Virus record (IMG/VR): IMGVR_UViG_3300044837_000012
Location: 1-25,588 of that record
Strand: one strand, 5' to 3'
Length of the DNA stretch: 25,588 bases
Source of the DNA: a virus
Made by a program: the position numbers and the translations under genes. Positions 7,490 to 25,588 of the stretch are shown one piece after another. How positions within the stretch are numbered: position 1 is the stretch's first letter; each line of letters begins with the position of its first letter. Under the pieces are notes generated by a model. The model saw only the letters and a list, made by a program, of their open reading frames with translations. It had not been told where the DNA came from and searched no databases.

Positions 7490-8041
7490 ATGTCGCTGCC
7501 GAATCTGAAGGACATTGCCGGCCAAAGGTTTGGGCGGCTGACGGTAGTCTCGCGCGCGGAGAACGCAAAGGACGGCACGGCTCGGTGGCTGTGCAAATGC
7601 GATTGCGAGGGCGAGACAATTTCTTTCGGTTCGAATTTGAGGCGTGGCACAGCCAAGTCCTGTGGCTGTATTAAGCGGGAAAATGCAAGGAAGCACGCGA
7701 AGATTATGGGGTCGGCCACGAGAACGCATGGGCATGCTGCGGCTCACTCCCGCGAGTATACAACTTGGGCTTCGATGAAGGATCGCTGCAGCAACCCGAA
7801 TACCCCGAACTACCGAAACTATGGTGGCCGCGGCATCAAGGTTTGCGATAGGTGGCTACTTAGCTTTGAAAACTTTCTTGCTGACATGGGGCCTAAGCCA
7901 TCAGGCATGTCCATTGACCGCATCGACAACAACGGAAACTACGAGCCGAGCAATTGTCGGTGGGCAACGTGGGATGAGCAGGCCAACAACAGGCGCCCCC
8001 GTCGCAGCTATAGAGGCTATGCAGAGATGGTCGCCCTATGA
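7490..8041 (+). CDS. Free-standing HNH-type homing endonuclease
   Basis: 183 residues. The N-terminal part has a Cys-rich ribbon: WLCKCDC (C35, C37, C39) and KSCGC (C58, C60), within the pattern [13 protein letters not shown]. The C-terminal part shows [57 protein letters not shown] and EQANNRR. This set is characteristic of a widespread family of phage homing-endonuclease-like proteins with an HNH-like core (D143, D146, N155). It would cut DNA of phages lacking the insert and spread itself. It sits exactly between two head genes: ATG directly after the upstream stop, and its own stop overlapping the portal start (ATGA), so it is co-translated with late genes. No intron is evident. Confidence 0.85.
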
Positions 8042-13400: not shown

Positions 13401-14045
13401 ATGGCAATCGACGCAACGCAAAAGCTGTCAATCTACAATCGCGCCCTCGGCGCGATGGGGGAGCGCAAGCTTGCCTCCGTGACGGAAGCGAGGGAGCCCC
13501 GGTATGTGTTGGATGATTTCTTCAGCGATGTGGTCGGTCAGTGTCTTGAGTTAGGAGACTGGAAGTTTGCCAGACGGTTTGTGAAAATCACCGCTTCTAC
13601 AAGTGTGGAGCCTGATTTCGGCTTTCAGTTTGTATTCCCGATACCGACTGATTTCCTCAAGATCAGACGCCTCGCGGAGGATGAGAACCTTGATATTCCG
13701 CTCCTGCGCTTTCGGGAGGAAAACGGCTTCTGGTATGCAAACGTAACTCCGATCTATCTGGAGTACGTCTCCAGCAGCGCCACCCTAGGCGGGTTGGATG
13801 GCGGGAGTTGGCCGCAACTCTTTGAGCAATACGTGGCAGCCCGTCTTGCCACTCTCTCTGCCCCCAGAATAACGGGCTGGAATGCTAATATCATCCAGTA
13901 CCTTGAGACGAAGGAAAAGAAGGCGAAAGCCGAAGCGATGGAGCTGAATGCGATCGGCACTCCTCCACAGGCTCAGATGCCCGGGTCGTGGGTCATGTCA
14001 AGAATGAGTGGGTCAAACCGCTCTCGCTGGGATCGCCGCTCTTGA
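13401..14045 (+). CDS. Tail tubular protein A-like (T7 gp11 position)
   Basis: 214 residues, close to T7 gp11 (196). It forms the adaptor ring between portal and nozzle. Features of the family are the N-terminal IYNRALGAMGERKLASVTEA, the turn LDDFFSDVVGQCLELGDWKF, FPIPTDFLKIRRL in the middle, YLEYVSSSATLGG, and the helix LFEQYVAARLATLSAPRITG. AAAGGGA lies about 11 bases before ATG 13401. The stop overlaps the start of tail tubular protein B as TTGA. Confidence 0.85.
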   Translation: MAIDATQKLSIYNRALGAMGERKLASVTEAREPRYVLDDFFSDVVGQCLELGDWKFARRFVKITASTSVEPDFGFQFVFPIPTDFLKIRRLAEDENLDIPLLRFREENGFWYANVTPIYLEYVSSSATLGGLDGGSWPQLFEQYVAARLATLSAPRITGWNANIIQYLETKEKKAKAEAMELNAIGTPPQAQMPGSWVMSRMSGSNRSRWDRRS

Positions 14046-17453: not shown

Positions 17454-17822
17454 ATGAAGCCTGTCACTCGCCCTGCTGTGTTGGGCGATTTTCTGAAAAT
17501 CTACGGAACGCCCCCTGACTACCGCGTGAGAGCCATCGCGGGTGAGGTTGGGGGAGAAGTGATTGCAGTCGGGGGAATAGCCTTTCTCCCAAACGGATCG
17601 CATGTCGCCTTCCTGCGGGCTGACGACAAGGCAAGACAGTTTCCAATGGCCCTGCACAAGGCGGGGCTTTTCATCATCAAGGAAGCGCGGCGGCTCGGGA
17701 TCAAACGTCTCGTTGCCTACGCGGAAGACGGGATTGAGGCGGCGGAGCGTTGGTTAAAACGGCTCGGCTTTGAACCCGCAGAATACGATGGACAAGAGGT
17801 TTGGGTATGGGAGCAGCGATAG
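17454..17822 (+). CDS. GNAT-like acetyltransferase-fold protein (T7 gp13 position)
   Basis: 122 residues. The middle GEVIAVGGIAFLPNGSHVAF is a beta hairpin, followed by the helix PMALHKAGLFIIKEARRLGI, strand KRLVAYAEDGIEAAERWLKR and LGFEPAE, the usual C-terminal half of a GNAT fold. The acetyl-CoA loop (Q/RxxGxG/A) is not clear, so catalysis is uncertain. Small GNAT-like proteins are common at this place in podovirus genomes, between nozzle and internal virion genes, where they are thought to be virion-associated. GAGG precedes ATG 17454 closely. The 3' end overlaps the next gene by 16 bases. Confidence 0.7.
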   Translation: MKPVTRPAVLGDFLKIYGTPPDYRVRAIAGEVGGEVIAVGGIAFLPNGSHVAFLRADDKARQFPMALHKAGLFIIKEARRLGIKRLVAYAEDGIEAAERWLKRLGFEPAEYDGQEVWVWEQR

Positions 17823-18379
17823 GTCTGATCGGCACTGCGGTTTCTGCTGTCGGCACCATTGCGGGCGGCGCAGCGGCGAATCAGGCGGGCCAGTATCAGG
17901 CTAATGCCCTTGAGTTTCAGGCCAAGCAATACGAGCTTCAGGCGTCAGACGCGCGCGCATCTGGACAGAGATCGGACTTTGAGAAACGCAGGGAAGGGCG
18001 GTTCGCGGAATCCGCCCTGACTGCTCGAGCCGCCGCTGGTGGCGGGAGCGCGACTGATCCCACGGCGTTAAATATCTTAGGTGATATTGCGGGCCGCTCG
18101 GAATATCTCGCGCTGACCGAAGGATTTAAGGGCGAGAACAAGGCGCGTGGTTTTGAAGATGCGGCCAAGGGCGCTCGCTATAGCGCGGGTGCAGCTATAG
18201 CCGGTGGCCAAACTGCGCAGACAGCCTCCTACTTAGGCGCGGGCGGGACGATCCTGAGTGGACTGGGTTCGGCCTATTCACAAAACAAGGGCATCCCCAC
18301 CGGGACATCGCCTCTCGCTTCGACTACCCCGCTCGGCCTTTCCCCGCTGAACTATCGCAACAAGTTTTCAGTCGGTTAG
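17807..18379 (+). CDS. Internal virion protein, T7 gp14-like
   Basis: 190 residues from ATG 17807 (TTG 17801 is in frame two codons earlier; AAGAGG lies upstream). The N-terminus GAAIGLIGTAVSAVGTIAGG is a hydrophobic Gly/Ala helix, followed by a Gln/Ala-rich helix (QAGQYQANALEFQAKQYELQ) and FEKRREGRFAESALTARAAA, then GGGSATDPTALNILGDIAG. This is the standard layout of the small ejection protein in T7-like gene order. It is expected to be ejected at infection and to form part of the channel across the outer membrane. The stop TAG overlaps the ribosome site of the next gene (TTAGGAG). Confidence 0.8.
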   Translation: MGAAIGLIGTAVSAVGTIAGGAAANQAGQYQANALEFQAKQYELQASDARASGQRSDFEKRREGRFAESALTARAAAGGGSATDPTALNILGDIAGRSEYLALTEGFKGENKARGFEDAAKGARYSAGAAIAGGQTAQTASYLGAGGTILSGLGSAYSQNKGIPTGTSPLASTTPLGLSPLNYRNKFSVG

Positions 18380-18390
18380 GAGCTACGACA

Positions 18391-21300
18391 ATCGCACGTC
18401 TCCCCGATTCAACGTCCCTAGGTCCGCTTCCATCAGCGGCTTCCGGTCGTCCCATGGCGAGCATTGATGCGTCCGGCTATGCCAAGGGCGCCGCCGCGAT
18501 GGCGGCTGGGGCTGAGCGTCTCGGGCGCGGCATTGCCAGCTTGGGCTCCAGTATTACGGCTGCAGACAACAAGGCGAAGGCGGATCAGGACTCGCTTGAG
18601 TTGGCGCACGCCAATTCGCAATATTCGATTGCCAAGCTTGATACGGCAGTTGGTGCGCCTCCCTCTGGCGGGAGTTCGGCTGGGAGCGCTGCGGCAGCCA
18701 GCGACCCCTATAGCCCGTCAGAGGAAGTCGATACCGCGCCCGTCACTGGATCCCCGGCGGCAGCGGGCGGCCAGCCGGTGGCCTCACCGGGTGCTACGCC
18801 AACCGCTTCCTCTCCTGATGTAGACGGCTCCACTCCTACTGCTCCGCAGGCCGATCAGAGCCTCCCTCAGCAGGAAGTCCACGCGCCGACCTCCTACGCC
18901 CGCCCCCTAGCAGCCAATCCCGATATCGAGGCAAAGACCAATGCCTTCAGGGCTCAGCGTGATCAATTCGCGCAGGGCATTACTGATCCTCTTGTTCGCC
19001 AGAAGTGGGTACTCAATAGCGAGGATGATGTAGAGCGTTATCGCCTTGGCCTCATGAAGCAGGCCCGCGCTGGCGAGCGTGACAAGCAAATTGCCTATGC
19101 CCGCGCCAATCAGAGCGCCGTTATCAGCCGCGCAATCGAGACAGGTGATGAGGGGGCGAGGGCTGCTGGCATTCGTGGTCAAATAGACGTTGTAGACGCG
19201 CTGGTCGCCAACAAATTCATGACCGCCCAGCAGGGCCAGGCATGGAAAAGCCAATTCCGAAACGACTACGGGACAGCAATTGGCCTCGCTTCCGAGCGCA
19301 AAGGGCCGGATGCGGTTAATAAGACCATTTCCGAACTGGAACAGGCGAGCTTCAATGCGGGCCATGCCCAGCCGCAGCAGCAGCCGAAGGATAAGCAATC
19401 GGCTTTGGACGATCCTACCAAGGTTGTGGCGCTTACCCATCAGCCGGAGCGCACCCCGAACGCCAAGGGCTACGGTGACACCCTCACAGGTGAAATCACC
19501 CTCAATGGCAACAAGTACAAGTTTGTAAACGGTGGCGGCGGTCGCGGCTCGATCCCGTTTGGTGAATACAAAATTGGGCAGTACCGCACTGCGGAGCAGC
19601 GCAATGCACAAGGCTTAAAGAATCTCGGCGACACGTTTGATTTGAGTGACGTTGCCGACCCGATGGCTGGCGGCAACCCACGCAGCGAACTCCGCATCCA
19701 TCGCGCTAGCAGAGGCGGCACGGCGGGCTGCATTGGTATTGTTGGCGACGAGGAAACCTTCCAGCGTTTCGTCAAGGATATGAAAACCGCCGGACCTCAG
19801 ACGCTTGCTCTTGCTGGCCCCGGCGGCGCAGCGGCGTCCGGCGGTGGTAAAGACGCGTCCGGCGGGTCTGCTGATGGGCTGCTCGGTTACAAGGTGCGCG
19901 ACAAGCTGCACCCAGGAGAAGACGAATATTTTAAAGCCAACCCGAAGGTTGCGGGCATGGCTGCCGAAACCGGCGACATCATCCTCAACCCGTATGCGGC
20001 AAAAGACGTAAACAAGGATGCTGTAGCGAAGAACGAGGCATTCCGGCTTTACCTGCGCGACAAGAAGATAAGCCCTGATTTTGCCATTACCGACGCGCAG
20101 CGCGCAGCTTTCAAGGGCGCCGCTTATGCCGAAGACGATGAGGCGCTAAAGGGCACCATCGCTGCTCGCATCTATTCCGGCGACCCATCTGCAAAGGCTA
20201 CCTCCGAACAAAAGGATTGGGTTACGGGCCAGCAGCAAGCGTTGGCGAAAGAAGAGCATGGCAAGCCGGTGAAGGTCGCGAGCGCAGACGGGAGCTTTCC
20301 GGCGCCCGGCCCATCGCCAGACAGCGGCGCTCTCCCCGGCGAGAAGGTTGCCCAAGCCCAGCCACAGCGCCACCCCACCATCTTCGACGCGATGGACCCG
20401 CTCCCCCGCGAGCATCTGCTCAATCAGTTGCGAGCAGCGCGCGATGTGCAGCAGGTGAAGGCTGCAAAAGACACGTCCGAAGGTTACGAACGGGCGCTCA
20501 TTGATGCATCTGCTGGTCGCGGGCCGTTGCCTACGCGCGAATCTATCCAAAACGAAAAGGCATTTAATGGGAATGAGAATATCCGCAACACGCTGCTGAA
20601 GCAGTACGACAGCGCGGCGGGCGATGTGGTTGCCATCCAAAACACCATGCAACGGTTTAGGGATGGTGGCCAGTTCAATCCCTACGACAAAGACGAGCGC
20701 AAGAACGTCGACAAGATTTACGGCGCGTTGGGCGGGGAAGACCCGAAACAGCAAGCCGCCGCGTTGCAGTCTGTTATCACCAAGACTGGCATTTTCCCAG
20801 ATTCCGCCGCCGTCAAGATTCGCGCCGATCTGATCTCCAATGACCCGAAGCGCGTTGTTGCCGGTATGACCCGGGCGTCCAATGCGCTGGCCGGCAACCC
20901 TAACATTCTAGTGAAGGTCGAGGGTGAAAAGGACATCGAGGACAATGCGCTCAAGTTCCGAACCTACGTCGATGACTTTGGCTTAACGGCTGAAGAAGCC
21001 GCCAATAGGCTGATCCGCGATCAGTCGCCGGAACACAAGGCGAGCGTGAACGCCAAGATCAAATCTGAAGACGTTGACGATAAGATCAAAAAGAACCTGA
21101 AGATCAATGATCTTTCCGGCGCGTTCGACGATAGCTTTCTCGGGCTGGCGACCAACCCTGTCGCTGGGTACAGCGTTAAGGCGCGCGACAGGGTGTTCGA
21201 CCAGTTCGGGCAGTTGGTAAAAGAATACTATTTGGATACGGCCAACGGCGATTGGGACATGGCCAAGAAGCTCGCCGCCAACCAGCTTAAAAAGACGTGG

Positions 21301-21801
21301 GGGATTAGCGAGATCAACGGCAATAAGATGTTGACGCAATACCCGCCTGAAAAAGCGCCCGCCTATCAGGGCATCGAGAATGCGCCCGCCTTGATCGCCC
21401 AGCAGGCGCAGGAGGCCATTAAAACGGAAACCGGCGTGGATATAGACCGCAAGGGAATCCGCATGAGCGTCGTTCCTGGAGTCACAGCGCAGCAATATAA
21501 GGCCGGTCAGCCCCCCGCTTACCTTTTGTCGTGGGAAGACAAGAACGGCCTCGTCCACATGCTCAACCCCGGCAAGGCGTTTGTTGCCGATCCGAAGGCG
21601 TTGCGAGACGCGCAGACCGCGCAGCGAGAGGCGGCTATCACCGCTGCCGTGGAAACCCGCGCCACCAACCCGATGCAGGATATTGGGCTTGAAGCTAAGG
21701 GGCGGAACGCTGCGGCTGACACGTTAATTACTTCGGCCCGCGAGCGAACGGCTGCTGATGTCCAGAAAATGCGACAGCGCCACGACGGGATGGTTTACTA
21801 A
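18391..21801 (+). CDS. Large ejection protein with Tlde1/L,D-transpeptidase-like domain; probable AUC start
   Basis: 1,136 residues if initiated at ATC 18391; ATG 18454 would give 1,115. AGGAG (18378-18382) is 8 bases before ATC, whereas ATG 18454 has no ribosome site. The residues between (ARLPDSTSLGPLPSAASG) match the usual beginning of such proteins. A Pro/Ala/Ser-rich linker covers about residues 90-175. A domain at about 360-466 begins GYGDTLTGEITLNGNKYKF and carries SIPFGEYKIG and RSELRIHRASRGGTAGCIGI, with candidate catalytic H437 and C447; this resembles Tlde1 (DUF2778) and other L,D-transpeptidase-like enzymes acting on peptidoglycan stem peptides. The rest is charged and helical. 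Position matches T7 gp15. The stop is in a TAATG junction. Confidence 0.82.
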   Translation: MARLPDSTSLGPLPSAASGRPMASIDASGYAKGAAAMAAGAERLGRGIASLGSSITAADNKAKADQDSLELAHANSQYSIAKLDTAVGAPPSGGSSAGSAAAASDPYSPSEEVDTAPVTGSPAAAGGQPVASPGATPTASSPDVDGSTPTAPQADQSLPQQEVHAPTSYARPLAANPDIEAKTNAFRAQRDQFAQGITDPLVRQKWVLNSEDDVERYRLGLMKQARAGERDKQIAYARANQSAVISRAIETGDEGARAAGIRGQIDVVDALVANKFMTAQQGQAWKSQFRNDYGTAIGLASERKGPDAVNKTISELEQASFNAGHAQPQQQPKDKQSALDDPTKVVALTHQPERTPNAKGYGDTLTGEITLNGNKYKFVNGGGGRGSIPFGEYKIGQYRTAEQRNAQGLKNLGDTFDLSDVADPMAGGNPRSELRIHRASRGGTAGCIGIVGDEETFQRFVKDMKTAGPQTLALAGPGGAAASGGGKDASGGSADGLLGYKVRDKLHPGEDEYFKANPKVAGMAAETGDIILNPYAAKDVNKDAVAKNEAFRLYLRDKKISPDFAITDAQRAAFKGAAYAEDDEALKGTIAARIYSGDPSAKATSEQKDWVTGQQQALAKEEHGKPVKVASADGSFPAPGPSPDSGALPGEKVAQAQPQRHPTIFDAMDPLPREHLLNQLRAARDVQQVKAAKDTSEGYERALIDASAGRGPLPTRESIQNEKAFNGNENIRNTLLKQYDSAAGDVVAIQNTMQRFRDGGQFNPYDKDERKNVDKIYGALGGEDPKQQAAALQSVITKTGIFPDSAAVKIRADLISNDPKRVVAGMTRASNALAGNPNILVKVEGEKDIEDNALKFRTYVDDFGLTAEEAANRLIRDQSPEHKASVNAKIKSEDVDDKIKKNLKINDLSGAFDDSFLGLATNPVAGYSVKARDRVFDQFGQLVKEYYLDTANGDWDMAKKLAANQLKKTWGISEINGNKMLTQYPPEKAPAYQGIENAPALIAQQAQEAIKTETGVDIDRKGIRMSVVPGVTAQQYKAGQPPAYLLSWEDKNGLVHMLNPGKAFVADPKALRDAQTAQREAAITAAVETRATNPMQDIGLEAKGRNAAADTLITSARERTAADVQKMRQRHDGMVY

Positions 21802-24800
21802 TGCCCATCGTCGATATTGCCCCGCCATCGACTGACGCAATCGTTGATACCCCGAAGGGCTTTGCTGTCACCCCCGGTCAGTTTGACGTTGACCACGGCT
21901 CGGAGGCGCCGGGCGCTGGGGCGATCTACGGCGCGGCGTGGGCCTCGGGAAATACATTCGGCTCCTACTCCGCCGATATGACGCGCGAACAAACGCACGT
22001 TGACGAGCCTGGCTATCGTGCGTGGGATGGCATTAAGGGGACGCCCTTTGAACCGCATTGGGAACGGTTCGTTGATGTCAGGAATAGCGGCGACGAAGAT
22101 ATACTGAAGCGCCAGATTCTAAGTGAGGATGAGCGCCGCAAGACAATTGACGCGGGGCCTTGGTATCACAGCGTCCCGGCCCAGATTGTTGCTGGCGGCG
22201 CGGATTGGCCGACCCTTCTTCCTGCCGGCGCGATTGTCAGGGGCGCTAAGGGCGCATCGTGGGCGCTGTCTGCTGCAAGTGTTGGTACGGCGGCTGCGGT
22301 CGGTAGCTTGGCTCAGGAAACGGCCCTTCATGCTACGCAGCAAACCCGCACTCTGACCGAAAGCGGCGTGAATGTTGGGGCTTCATTTCTCGTTGGCGGT
22401 CTGCTCGGGGCCACAGGCGCGAAGCTGCTGAGCAACGCCGAGTGGAGCCGCGCGGTAAAGTCGCTTGAACAGGAGTTGACGGGCGCACCAAAGCCAACCG
22501 CCGTTGCTGTAGAGGGCGCATTCCCAGGTTCAGCCGGTGCCGCCGCTGTAGAGCCCGGCAATATCGAAGGCAATGCGATTGCGGGCAGGGCGGCGGGTGC
22601 CGTGGCCGCGGCTACTTCGCGATTAAACCCAGCCCTCCGTATTCTGCAAAGCCCCTCCGCTGCCGTCCGAGACATTGGCACCAAACTATTTGAGAACAGC
22701 CTTTACCTGAAGAAGAACATGGACGGCGTAGCCTCAGAGCCAGCCGTCGAAACGCTGATGAAGGAGTGGAACGGCGGGTTAGCGAAAGCCGTAGAGATGA
22801 CGGACGGGAGCTTTTCGGAGTACCGCAAGGCTGGCGGCCCGCTTTCCCGGTCTGACTTTCGCGATGCTGTCGGGAAGGCCATGCGGCGCGGTGACGAATC
22901 CGACGATCCGCACGTTACCCAAGTAGCGAAGGAATGGCGCGCCAAGGTTTTCGATCCGCTGAAAGAAGCGGCCATTGCGGCCAAGCTGTTGCCGGAAGAT
23001 GTGAGCGTTGAAACAGCCGCGTCCTATTTCTCCCGCATGTGGAACCGCAATAAACTTATTGCGCAGGAGGGCAAGTTCGTAGGCACTGTTACGGATTACT
23101 ATGCTGGTGCAATTGGCAAGGAATACGACAAATCGTCCCAGAGCTTTGCCCAGCGTATAGCGCGGCTCGATCAGGAAAACGCCGACTTAAACCTACCGGC
23201 AGATGCCAGACTAAAAACGCTCGATGAAATCGATGTTAAGATCAAAGCGCTGGATGACCAGTCTGGCGATGCTGTTGAGCAGGCAGATAGGCTGTCAGAA
23301 TTGGCAGGCTCAATGCGCGCTGCCCGCAAAGCGGGCGATGACGCGGGCTATCAAACGGCAAAGACCGAGGCGGATGGCATAAAAAAAACGGGCGGCAAAG
23401 AGCTTGCTGCGTACATAGAGGCGCGGTCTGGCTTGCGCGCCCGTTCGCGCAACGTCGATCTCGGCGTTGCCGGTTTGCAAGAAAGATCAGACCGCGCTCT
23501 GGGCCAGTTGGCTGATCTTGAGGAGGCCAACTATCGGTCTATGGACTGGCTCATCAAGAAGGGCCAGAAGCTTGAGCGCGACCTGGATCGGCTGGACGCG
23601 GATGCATTTGAGCAAAAGGTTGATGACCTAATCGAGTCCTACCGCAAGGTAGCCAGTAAAGCCGAATCCTCTGCCGCCCGCGCCAACCAAGAAATTGAGA
23701 ATATCAATAAGCGCGCCGCCGCTAAGGAAGTCAGAAACATCGAAAAGGGCGCGGAGATCAGCGCCGAGTCTGATGTGCGTATCTCTCAACGCATTGAGCA
23801 AGAATCCGTGCGGCAGGCCGCGCGAGCCAAGCGCATGAGTGAGATTGCGGAGCGCTTGGAGGTAGCCAAGGGCTTCGACCACGACGGACTTATGGAAGAA
23901 ATCAGGTCGGCAGTTGACAAGGCCGTGCGCGAAACTTCCGCGCGGTCTTTGGCGCAGGGTGAACGAGCGGCGCGGCTTGGTGAGCGAATGGCAAAGCTGG
24001 ACCCAGCGCGCGTTGCGGCTCGGGTGAAGGTTATTGAGTCCATGAAGCGGGGCGCAGAGAGGTCATTCTACGACCGATGGGAGGTCCGCAATCTGGGTAG
24101 CGGTGTCGATCCTCGATCTGGTGCGAGGGCGGATTTTACTGAGGCTGCCAAGGCAATAGCTAATTCGGCCTATGCAACGCTGACTGGCCGCGTTGCTGGC
24201 GGGCCGCGCCCAGAGTTCATGAAGATAACAACCCGTGGCCCGATGAAGGACCGGACGCTTAATATCCCAGACCATCTAGTAGAGGATTTCCTTGAAAGTG
24301 ACGTTGACCTGGTTGGTCGACGATATGCTCGCGTCATGGGCGCCGATGTTGAAATGGCCAAAAAGTTCGGCTCAACCGATATGGCCGAGCAAATCCAGAA
24401 GATACGCGACGACTACGCCCAGTTAAGAACCGGCCTGACCGACGAAAAGCAACTGACGAAACTAGGCGAGGCGGAGAAGGGCGACGTTCGCGACATTGAG
24501 GCCTTGCGCGATCTGCTTCGTGGGACACGGCAGGAAAGCCCGATTGAACGGAATTATGGCCGCCTTACGCGGGCCTTCAATCACCTGAATTACATCCGGT
24601 CGATGGGCGAGGTCGTTCTAGCCTCGCTCACGGACGCGGTACGGCCCGCCATGGTGCATGGGCTGGGGCAGTTTATGCAGACCGTTCCTCAGCTTATTGG
24701 GAACCTGAAGGGTATCAAGCTCTCGGTTGCTGAGGCTCAGTTGGCCGGCAACGTGATTGAGCGGACGCTAGGCCATCGCCTCGCGACCATATCGGAGATT

Positions 24801-25588
24801 ATCGATCCCTACGCCTCGCGCGGCCCGACAGAGGCGTTTCTGGAAAACCTGACGAACATCGGCTCCAAGTGGAACGGCATTCGTATCTGGACCGACATGA
24901 TGAAGTCGGTTGCGTCGGTCATGACGCAGAACCGTATTATTGCAAGCTCGCTAGACTTCGGAAAGATCAAGCCGAAGGAACGCGCCTACCTCGCATATCT
25001 CGGCGTCGACCAATCAATGGCCGACCGCATCGCCAAGCAATTCTCAACCCACGGCGAAACCGTTGACGGCGTGAAGGTCGCCAATACGGCAGAATGGACG
25101 GACCCTGTAGCGGTTCGCACCTATCGTGCCGCGATGAATAAGGACGTTGACTCGATCATTGTTCAAAAGTCCGTGGCTGATGTTCCGCTGTTCGCCTCTA
25201 CCACAACCGGACGGATGCTGTTGCAGTTCAAATCCTTCGCGCTCGCCTCCCATCAGCGCGTTTTGCTCCGGGGGTTACAGGAAGACCAATCCCGCTTTAT
25301 CGGCGGCACCGTTGCTATGACGGCGATGGGAATGGCGATGACTTACCTGAAAGCAATTTCCGGCAACCGGACAGAGAAACAATCCAGCTTCTTCGATAAT
25401 CCGGGCTGGTGGATCGGGGAGGGCCTAGACCGTTCCGGCGTCTTGGCTGTCCCGATGGAGTTGGCAAATACATTCGAGCGCGCGAGCGGCTTTAATCCAA
25501 TCAAGGCCCCTCTGAAAATGGGGGACGAGGACTCGGCGATGTCGCAGAAGAACCAGGGCCGCAACGAGGTGGGCGCCTTGCTCGGTCC
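21801..25588 (+). CDS. Giant internal virion / ejection protein, T7 gp16 position (3' end outside window)
   Basis: ATG 21801 overlaps the previous stop (TAATG) and the frame stays open for 1,262 codons to the window edge. The first ~120 residues are acidic and soluble. Residues ~123-210 are Gly/Ala-rich and hydrophobic (LVGGLLGATGAKLL), suited to membrane insertion. About 440-755 is a long charged coiled-coil region (KKGQKLERDLDRLDADAFEQ and similar). Near 1138-1160, GRMLLQFKSFALASHQRVLL is a segment I recognise as recurring in the largest ejection proteins of podoviruses. No lytic transglycosylase domain like that of T7 gp16 is visible here; the wall-active domains are in two other genes. 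A run of eight A's lies at 23381-23388. It likely forms the periplasmic/inner-membrane DNA-ejection channel. Confidence 0.82.
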   Translation, partial: MPIVDIAPPSTDAIVDTPKGFAVTPGQFDVDHGSEAPGAGAIYGAAWASGNTFGSYSADMTREQTHVDEPGYRAWDGIKGTPFEPHWERFVDVRNSGDEDILKRQILSEDERRKTIDAGPWYHSVPAQIVAGGADWPTLLPAGAIVRGAKGASWALSAASVGTAAAVGSLAQETALHATQQTRTLTESGVNVGASFLVGGLLGATGAKLLSNAEWSRAVKSLEQELTGAPKPTAVAVEGAFPGSAGAAAVEPGNIEGNAIAGRAAGAVAAATSRLNPALRILQSPSAAVRDIGTKLFENSLYLKKNMDGVASEPAVETLMKEWNGGLAKAVEMTDGSFSEYRKAGGPLSRSDFRDAVGKAMRRGDESDDPHVTQVAKEWRAKVFDPLKEAAIAAKLLPEDVSVETAASYFSRMWNRNKLIAQEGKFVGTVTDYYAGAIGKEYDKSSQSFAQRIARLDQENADLNLPADARLKTLDEIDVKIKALDDQSGDAVEQADRLSELAGSMRAARKAGDDAGYQTAKTEADGIKKTGGKELAAYIEARSGLRARSRNVDLGVAGLQERSDRALGQLADLEEANYRSMDWLIKKGQKLERDLDRLDADAFEQKVDDLIESYRKVASKAESSAARANQEIENINKRAAAKEVRNIEKGAEISAESDVRISQRIEQESVRQAARAKRMSEIAERLEVAKGFDHDGLMEEIRSAVDKAVRETSARSLAQGERAARLGERMAKLDPARVAARVKVIESMKRGAERSFYDRWEVRNLGSGVDPRSGARADFTEAAKAIANSAYATLTGRVAGGPRPEFMKITTRGPMKDRTLNIPDHLVEDFLESDVDLVGRRYARVMGADVEMAKKFGSTDMAEQIQKIRDDYAQLRTGLTDEKQLTKLGEAEKGDVRDIEALRDLLRGTRQESPIERNYGRLTRAFNHLNYIRSMGEVVLASLTDAVRPAMVHGLGQFMQTVPQLIGNLKGIKLSVAEAQLAGNVIERTLGHRLATISEIIDPYASRGPTEAFLENLTNIGSKWNGIRIWTDMMKSVASVMTQNRIIASSLDFGKIKPKERAYLAYLGVDQSMADRIAKQFSTHGETVDGVKVANTAEWTDPVAVRTYRAAMNKDVDSIIVQKSVADVPLFASTTTGRMLLQFKSFALASHQRVLLRGLQEDQSRFIGGTVAMTAMGMAMTYLKAISGNRTEKQSSFFDNPGWWIGEGLDRSGVLAVPMELANTFERASGFNPIKAPLKMGDEDSAMSQKNQGRNEVGALLG

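Follow-up and report, generated by a model that had tools for sequence, protein, structure and literature searches.

We identified a phage structural gene that may begin at an AUC codon. The gene, for a gp15-like ejection protein, lies on a 25,588-base virus DNA record from IMG/VR (the whole stretch was analyzed and is referred to here as the window). Comparison with relatives indicates that the ancestral start of the gene was very probably at 18391, where the window has ATC. We slightly favor a real C at 18393 and a working AUC start over a sequence error.

The window has the gene order of T7-like short-tailed phages (Table 1). The gp14-like, gp15-like, and gp16-like genes are present in the T7-type order, based on matches to phrog_418 upstream and to phrog_16310 and phrog_342 downstream of the gp15-like gene. 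The original prediction described a “1.1-kDa-class” ejection gene. The gene is indeed a large ejection gene, but the unit is a slip and must mean about 1.1 thousand residues. The gp15-like protein had no match to a curated gp15 family (T7 gp15 models, Pfam, and NCBIfam were all negative) and its sole match was phrog_38128 (E 8e-5), a family of unknown function. Size and synteny are the usual basis for assigning gp15-like proteins (PMC8954989). As in T7, the gene sits between those for gp14 and gp16, and from this position it likely encodes the periplasmic tunnel protein (PMC8954989). It differs from T7 gp15 in length (1136 vs. 747 aa) and in having an inserted putative cell-wall enzyme domain.

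Table 1. Features of the window (positions on the strand shown)
Feature	Position	Strand	Remarks
Terminase gene	5374		
Portal gene	8038		
Major head protein gene	11737		
Tail genes (two)	13401 and 14042		
gp14-like internal virion protein gene	17807..18379	+	phrog_418 internal virion protein, E 1.3e-21; T7_gp14 Pfam slightly under cut-off
Shine-Dalgarno (SD) core AGGAG	18378..18382	+	Spacer of 8 nt to ATC 18391-18393
ATC, probable ancestral start codon position	18391..18393	+	ATG here in 16 relatives; N-terminal alignments
Putative gp15-like ejection protein gene	18391..21801	+	1136 codons counted from ATC; conserved N-terminal segment 18394-18453
First in-frame ATG, residue 22 of the protein	18454..18456	+	Choice of a gene caller
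gp16-like ejection protein gene	21801..25588	+	Truncated by the record end; phrog_16310 E 6.8e-119, phrog_342 E 2.8e-90

Elsewhere in the window, the large tail gene has an apparent TTG start at 14042 that overlaps the TGA stop of the preceding gene (TTGA; 14042-14045). Relatives have ATG where the window has this TTG, and gene finders may extend the gene to GTG 13988. A small GNAT-like acetyltransferase-type gene (17454-17822) lies directly before the gp14-like gene, a place that it keeps in four related loci (L008, L014, L019, and L023). Between the terminase and portal genes is a 183-residue ORF (7490-8041) with by-eye resemblance to an HNH or AP2-type mobile endonuclease.

The frame of the gp15-like gene is open from 18184, after a stop at 18181-18183, and overlaps the end of the gp14-like gene. 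A codon scan confirmed the earlier claim that it holds no ATG, GTG, TTG, or CTG between this stop and ATG 18454; the only ATN codons in this interval are ATC 18307 and ATC 18391. The AGGAG predicted 8 bases before ATC 18391 is located as described, and the TAG stop of the gp14-like gene (18377-18379) overlaps it. This SD is a 5-base core rather than an extended one. Only 0.6% of window positions have AGGAG 5-9 nt upstream, and the computed SD:anti-SD duplex of -6.5 kcal/mol is equaled at 16% of random sites, and thus is unremarkable in this GC-rich record. The 71 nt around ATC 18391 fold weakly (-11.5 kcal/mol, against a 90th percentile of -13.2 for random sites), whereas those around ATG 18454 fold strongly (-22.2 kcal/mol). 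No SD precedes ATG 18454, as was also noted originally. The protein from the ATC start reads (M)ARLPDSTSLGPLP..., and the tryptic peptide predicted from residues 3-33 is LPDSTSLGPLPSAASGR, probably extending through PMASIDASGYAK given that trypsin seldom cleaves before proline.

No full-length relative of the gp15-like gene was found by sequence, so relatives were reached via the better conserved gp16-like neighbor. In each of 16 loci, from IMG/VR and public phages, we read the gene upstream of the gp16-like gene. Loci L002-L006 were set aside, as their similarity to the gp15-like protein is confined to an internal segment. The gene starts with ATG in all 16 relatives. This ATG mostly overlaps the preceding stop or lies immediately behind it, and the N-terminus is M-A-R/K/T-L/I-P in most. 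A strong SD precedes the gene in only five of the 16. Five relatives align to the window residue by residue, with N-termini MARLPD, MARLPG, MAKLPG, MKLPD, and MPTLPD, and their ATG falls at ATC 18391. The aligned N-terminus is (I)ARLPDSTSLGPLPSAASGRPMASIDASGYAKG in the window, MARLPDETALGGISNPSSGRQIATYDTTGYARG in L014, MARLPGALELGETPSIGPRPVANVDVSGFARG in L023, MAKLPGAPELGETPAVGPRPVASIDVSGLARG in L008, MKLPDYRALGPNPETRSG in L007, and MPTLPDITSLGSAP in L019. The match to these five is beyond chance, as the observed score was reached in 0 to 7 of 2000 shuffles, in agreement with the original view that the protein read from ATC has the normal N-terminus of the family. For the other 11 relatives, start equivalence is by position and, in most, a short motif (by position alone in L009-L011).

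Over codons 2-21, the window agrees with L014 in 11 of 20 residues and over the following stretch in 12 of 24, compared to one of 20 for the 20 in-frame codons upstream of ATC 18391. Residue 22, encoded by ATG 18454, is V in L008 and L023, I in L014, and T in L007. The original prediction had asked whether homologs have their ATG at 18391 or at the equivalent of 18454; all those examined have it at the former and none starts at the latter. Because of this, and of the change in similarity to L014, 18391 rather than 18454 is very probably the ancestral start.

Among these phages, the cell-wall enzyme domain in the central part of the gp15-like protein varies. In detail, there is an SLT transglycosylase in L008 (5384-6400), a phage lysozyme2 in L007 (3110-3800), and an amidase_2 in L023 (6325-8997); no cell-wall enzyme domain was found in L014 (6431-8950). 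In the window, a weak match to a Tlde1-like (L,D-transpeptidase-type) domain lies at 19342-19797 (E 0.013) and includes the motif H...GGTAGCIG; the structure predicted for this insert was poor (mean pLDDT 49.5). T7 instead has its wall-cutting domain in gp16.

If the ancestral start had been lost, translation could have shifted downstream to ATG 18454, shortening the protein by 21 residues. This ATG is the first canonical start in frame, and codon usage before it is atypical: codons 1-21 have a GC3 of 0.43 compared to 0.67 in the other genes of the phage, and their codon-usage score is below that of every 21-codon stretch of accepted genes. The unusual composition may reflect relaxed constraint or N-terminal drift. 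We consider such a move improbable, however, given that the SD before 18391 is intact while 18454 lacks one and is strongly folded, that 18454 is 74 bases past the gp14-like stop and thus far for re-initiation, that conservation is much the same in the residues on either side of it, and that no relative begins there. We give very little credence to a further scenario in which no start is needed because ribosomes leave the gp14-like frame for the gp15-like one, yielding a fusion protein. The overlap of the open frame with the end of the gp14-like gene would permit this, but inspection revealed no X-XXY-YYZ slippery site near that end (CAAGTTTTCAGTCGGTTAG), the genes are separate in relatives, and the in-frame stretch upstream has no similarity to L014.

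A more serious alternative, which we think less likely than a working AUC start, is that the virus has ATG at 18391. The C would then have arisen by error during sequencing, amplification, or assembly, or would represent a minority variant that entered the consensus. ATG is universal in the relatives, and a single base would account for everything that is odd about the gene. The ATC is known from one assembled contig, and no second copy that could confirm the C was found in IMG/VR using an exact pattern that left the third base free. The gp15-like gene matched nothing in phage records, at either the DNA or the protein level, and nothing in genome contigs, where the gp16-like alignment also had no match. 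However, an error would have to strike exactly this base, and every gene compared with relatives is one intact frame, so the compared part of the contig has no frameshift, broken gene, or other sign of error. A working AUC start is favored by the ATG at this place in 16 of 16 relatives, the contrast in similarity to L014 on either side of the codon, the well-placed AGGAG, and weak folding at the ATC as opposed to strong folding and no SD at ATG 18454. Counting against it, besides the single contig and the one-base explanation, are the 5-base SD core, the unusual composition of codons 1-21, the use of AUG here by every relative, and the rarity of a change from AUG to AUC. Among 61,358 reconstructed AUG starts, one had changed to AUU and none to AUC (PMC5622118), although this survey undercounts such changes because it was built on annotations that seldom allow these codons. 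We also scanned IMG/VR for AGGAG-N5..9 followed by ATH or ATG and codons for A, R/S, L/F, P, and D. The 8 and 14 matches include no gp15-like gene, so the scan is uninformative on the frequency of such starts. The weights we give to a used AUC, an error or variant, and a moved start reflect judgment, not calculation.

The position of the start is indicated by homology, the SD, weak local folding, and the lack of another start in frame. If the C is real and the AUC used, as we infer, initiation would probably be helped by the SD and by coupling to gp14-like termination 11 bases upstream. Ribosomes ending the gp14-like gene at TAG would be positioned on AGGAG, and the same ribosomes, or fresh 30S subunits, could then initiate with formyl-methionine on the AUC 8 nt downstream, giving full-length gp15-like protein at reduced yield. 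Re-initiation downstream of a stop is aided by an SD and impaired by distance (PMC2268962). A start 11 nt past the stop with its own SD is, in this single case, as expected if a weak codon is compensated. AUA and AUU starts with good SDs have roughly 10% of AUG yield in S. aureus (PMC13009471), and T7 gp15 is an octamer in the virion (PMC8954989), so few copies would be needed. The original proposal that AUC provides self-limiting or low-yield control was not supported: because all relatives use AUG, control by the weak codon is not a conserved feature. It is also doubtful that a natural AUC start, compensated by the SD and gp14-like termination, determines how much gp15-like protein is made relative to its neighbors and confers sensitivity to host IF3. 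A phage-borne tRNA reading AUC as initiator was rejected, as there is no tRNA in the window.

The candidate start shares features with known non-AUG starts. E. coli has just two AUU starts, in infC and pcnB (PMC9410913), and, as there, an AUN codon replaces AUG as the sole candidate start after an SD, with low yield expected. Those are AUU codons in self-regulated host genes, whereas here AUC occurs in a phage structural gene on one contig. As in infC, homologs fix the start at a codon other than ATG, GTG, or TTG, the frame upstream contains no canonical start, and an SD is well placed. In contrast, the unusual codon is conserved in infC, sigR, and ccpN but is replaced by ATG in all relatives here. 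Streptomyces sigR (GTC) likewise has a third-base C behind an SD, and gene callers pick a nearby canonical codon; its GTC is conserved across Streptomyces, mutation-tested, and IF3-repressed (PMC5472188), whereas the start described here is a candidate. The infC (AUA), cvfC1 (AUU), and ccpN (AUA) genes of S. aureus also have non-canonical AUN codons behind SDs, but theirs have extended SDs, conservation, and ribosome-profiling proof (PMC13009471).

Gene callers accept only ATG, GTG, and TTG. With this codon set, the start would be placed 63 bases too far downstream and the conserved N-terminus would be dropped. A limited search, with partial coverage of the literature, turned up no phage gene documented to have a natural AUC start. 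If the C is not confirmed, the case reduces to a one-base error. If it is confirmed, the gene would join the known non-AUG starts (AUU in infC and pcnB, GTC in sigR, and AUA/AUU in S. aureus) as a clean example of AUC initiation in a phage structural gene, and the upstream stop overlapping the SD would represent a setting where re-initiation may relax start-codon choice.
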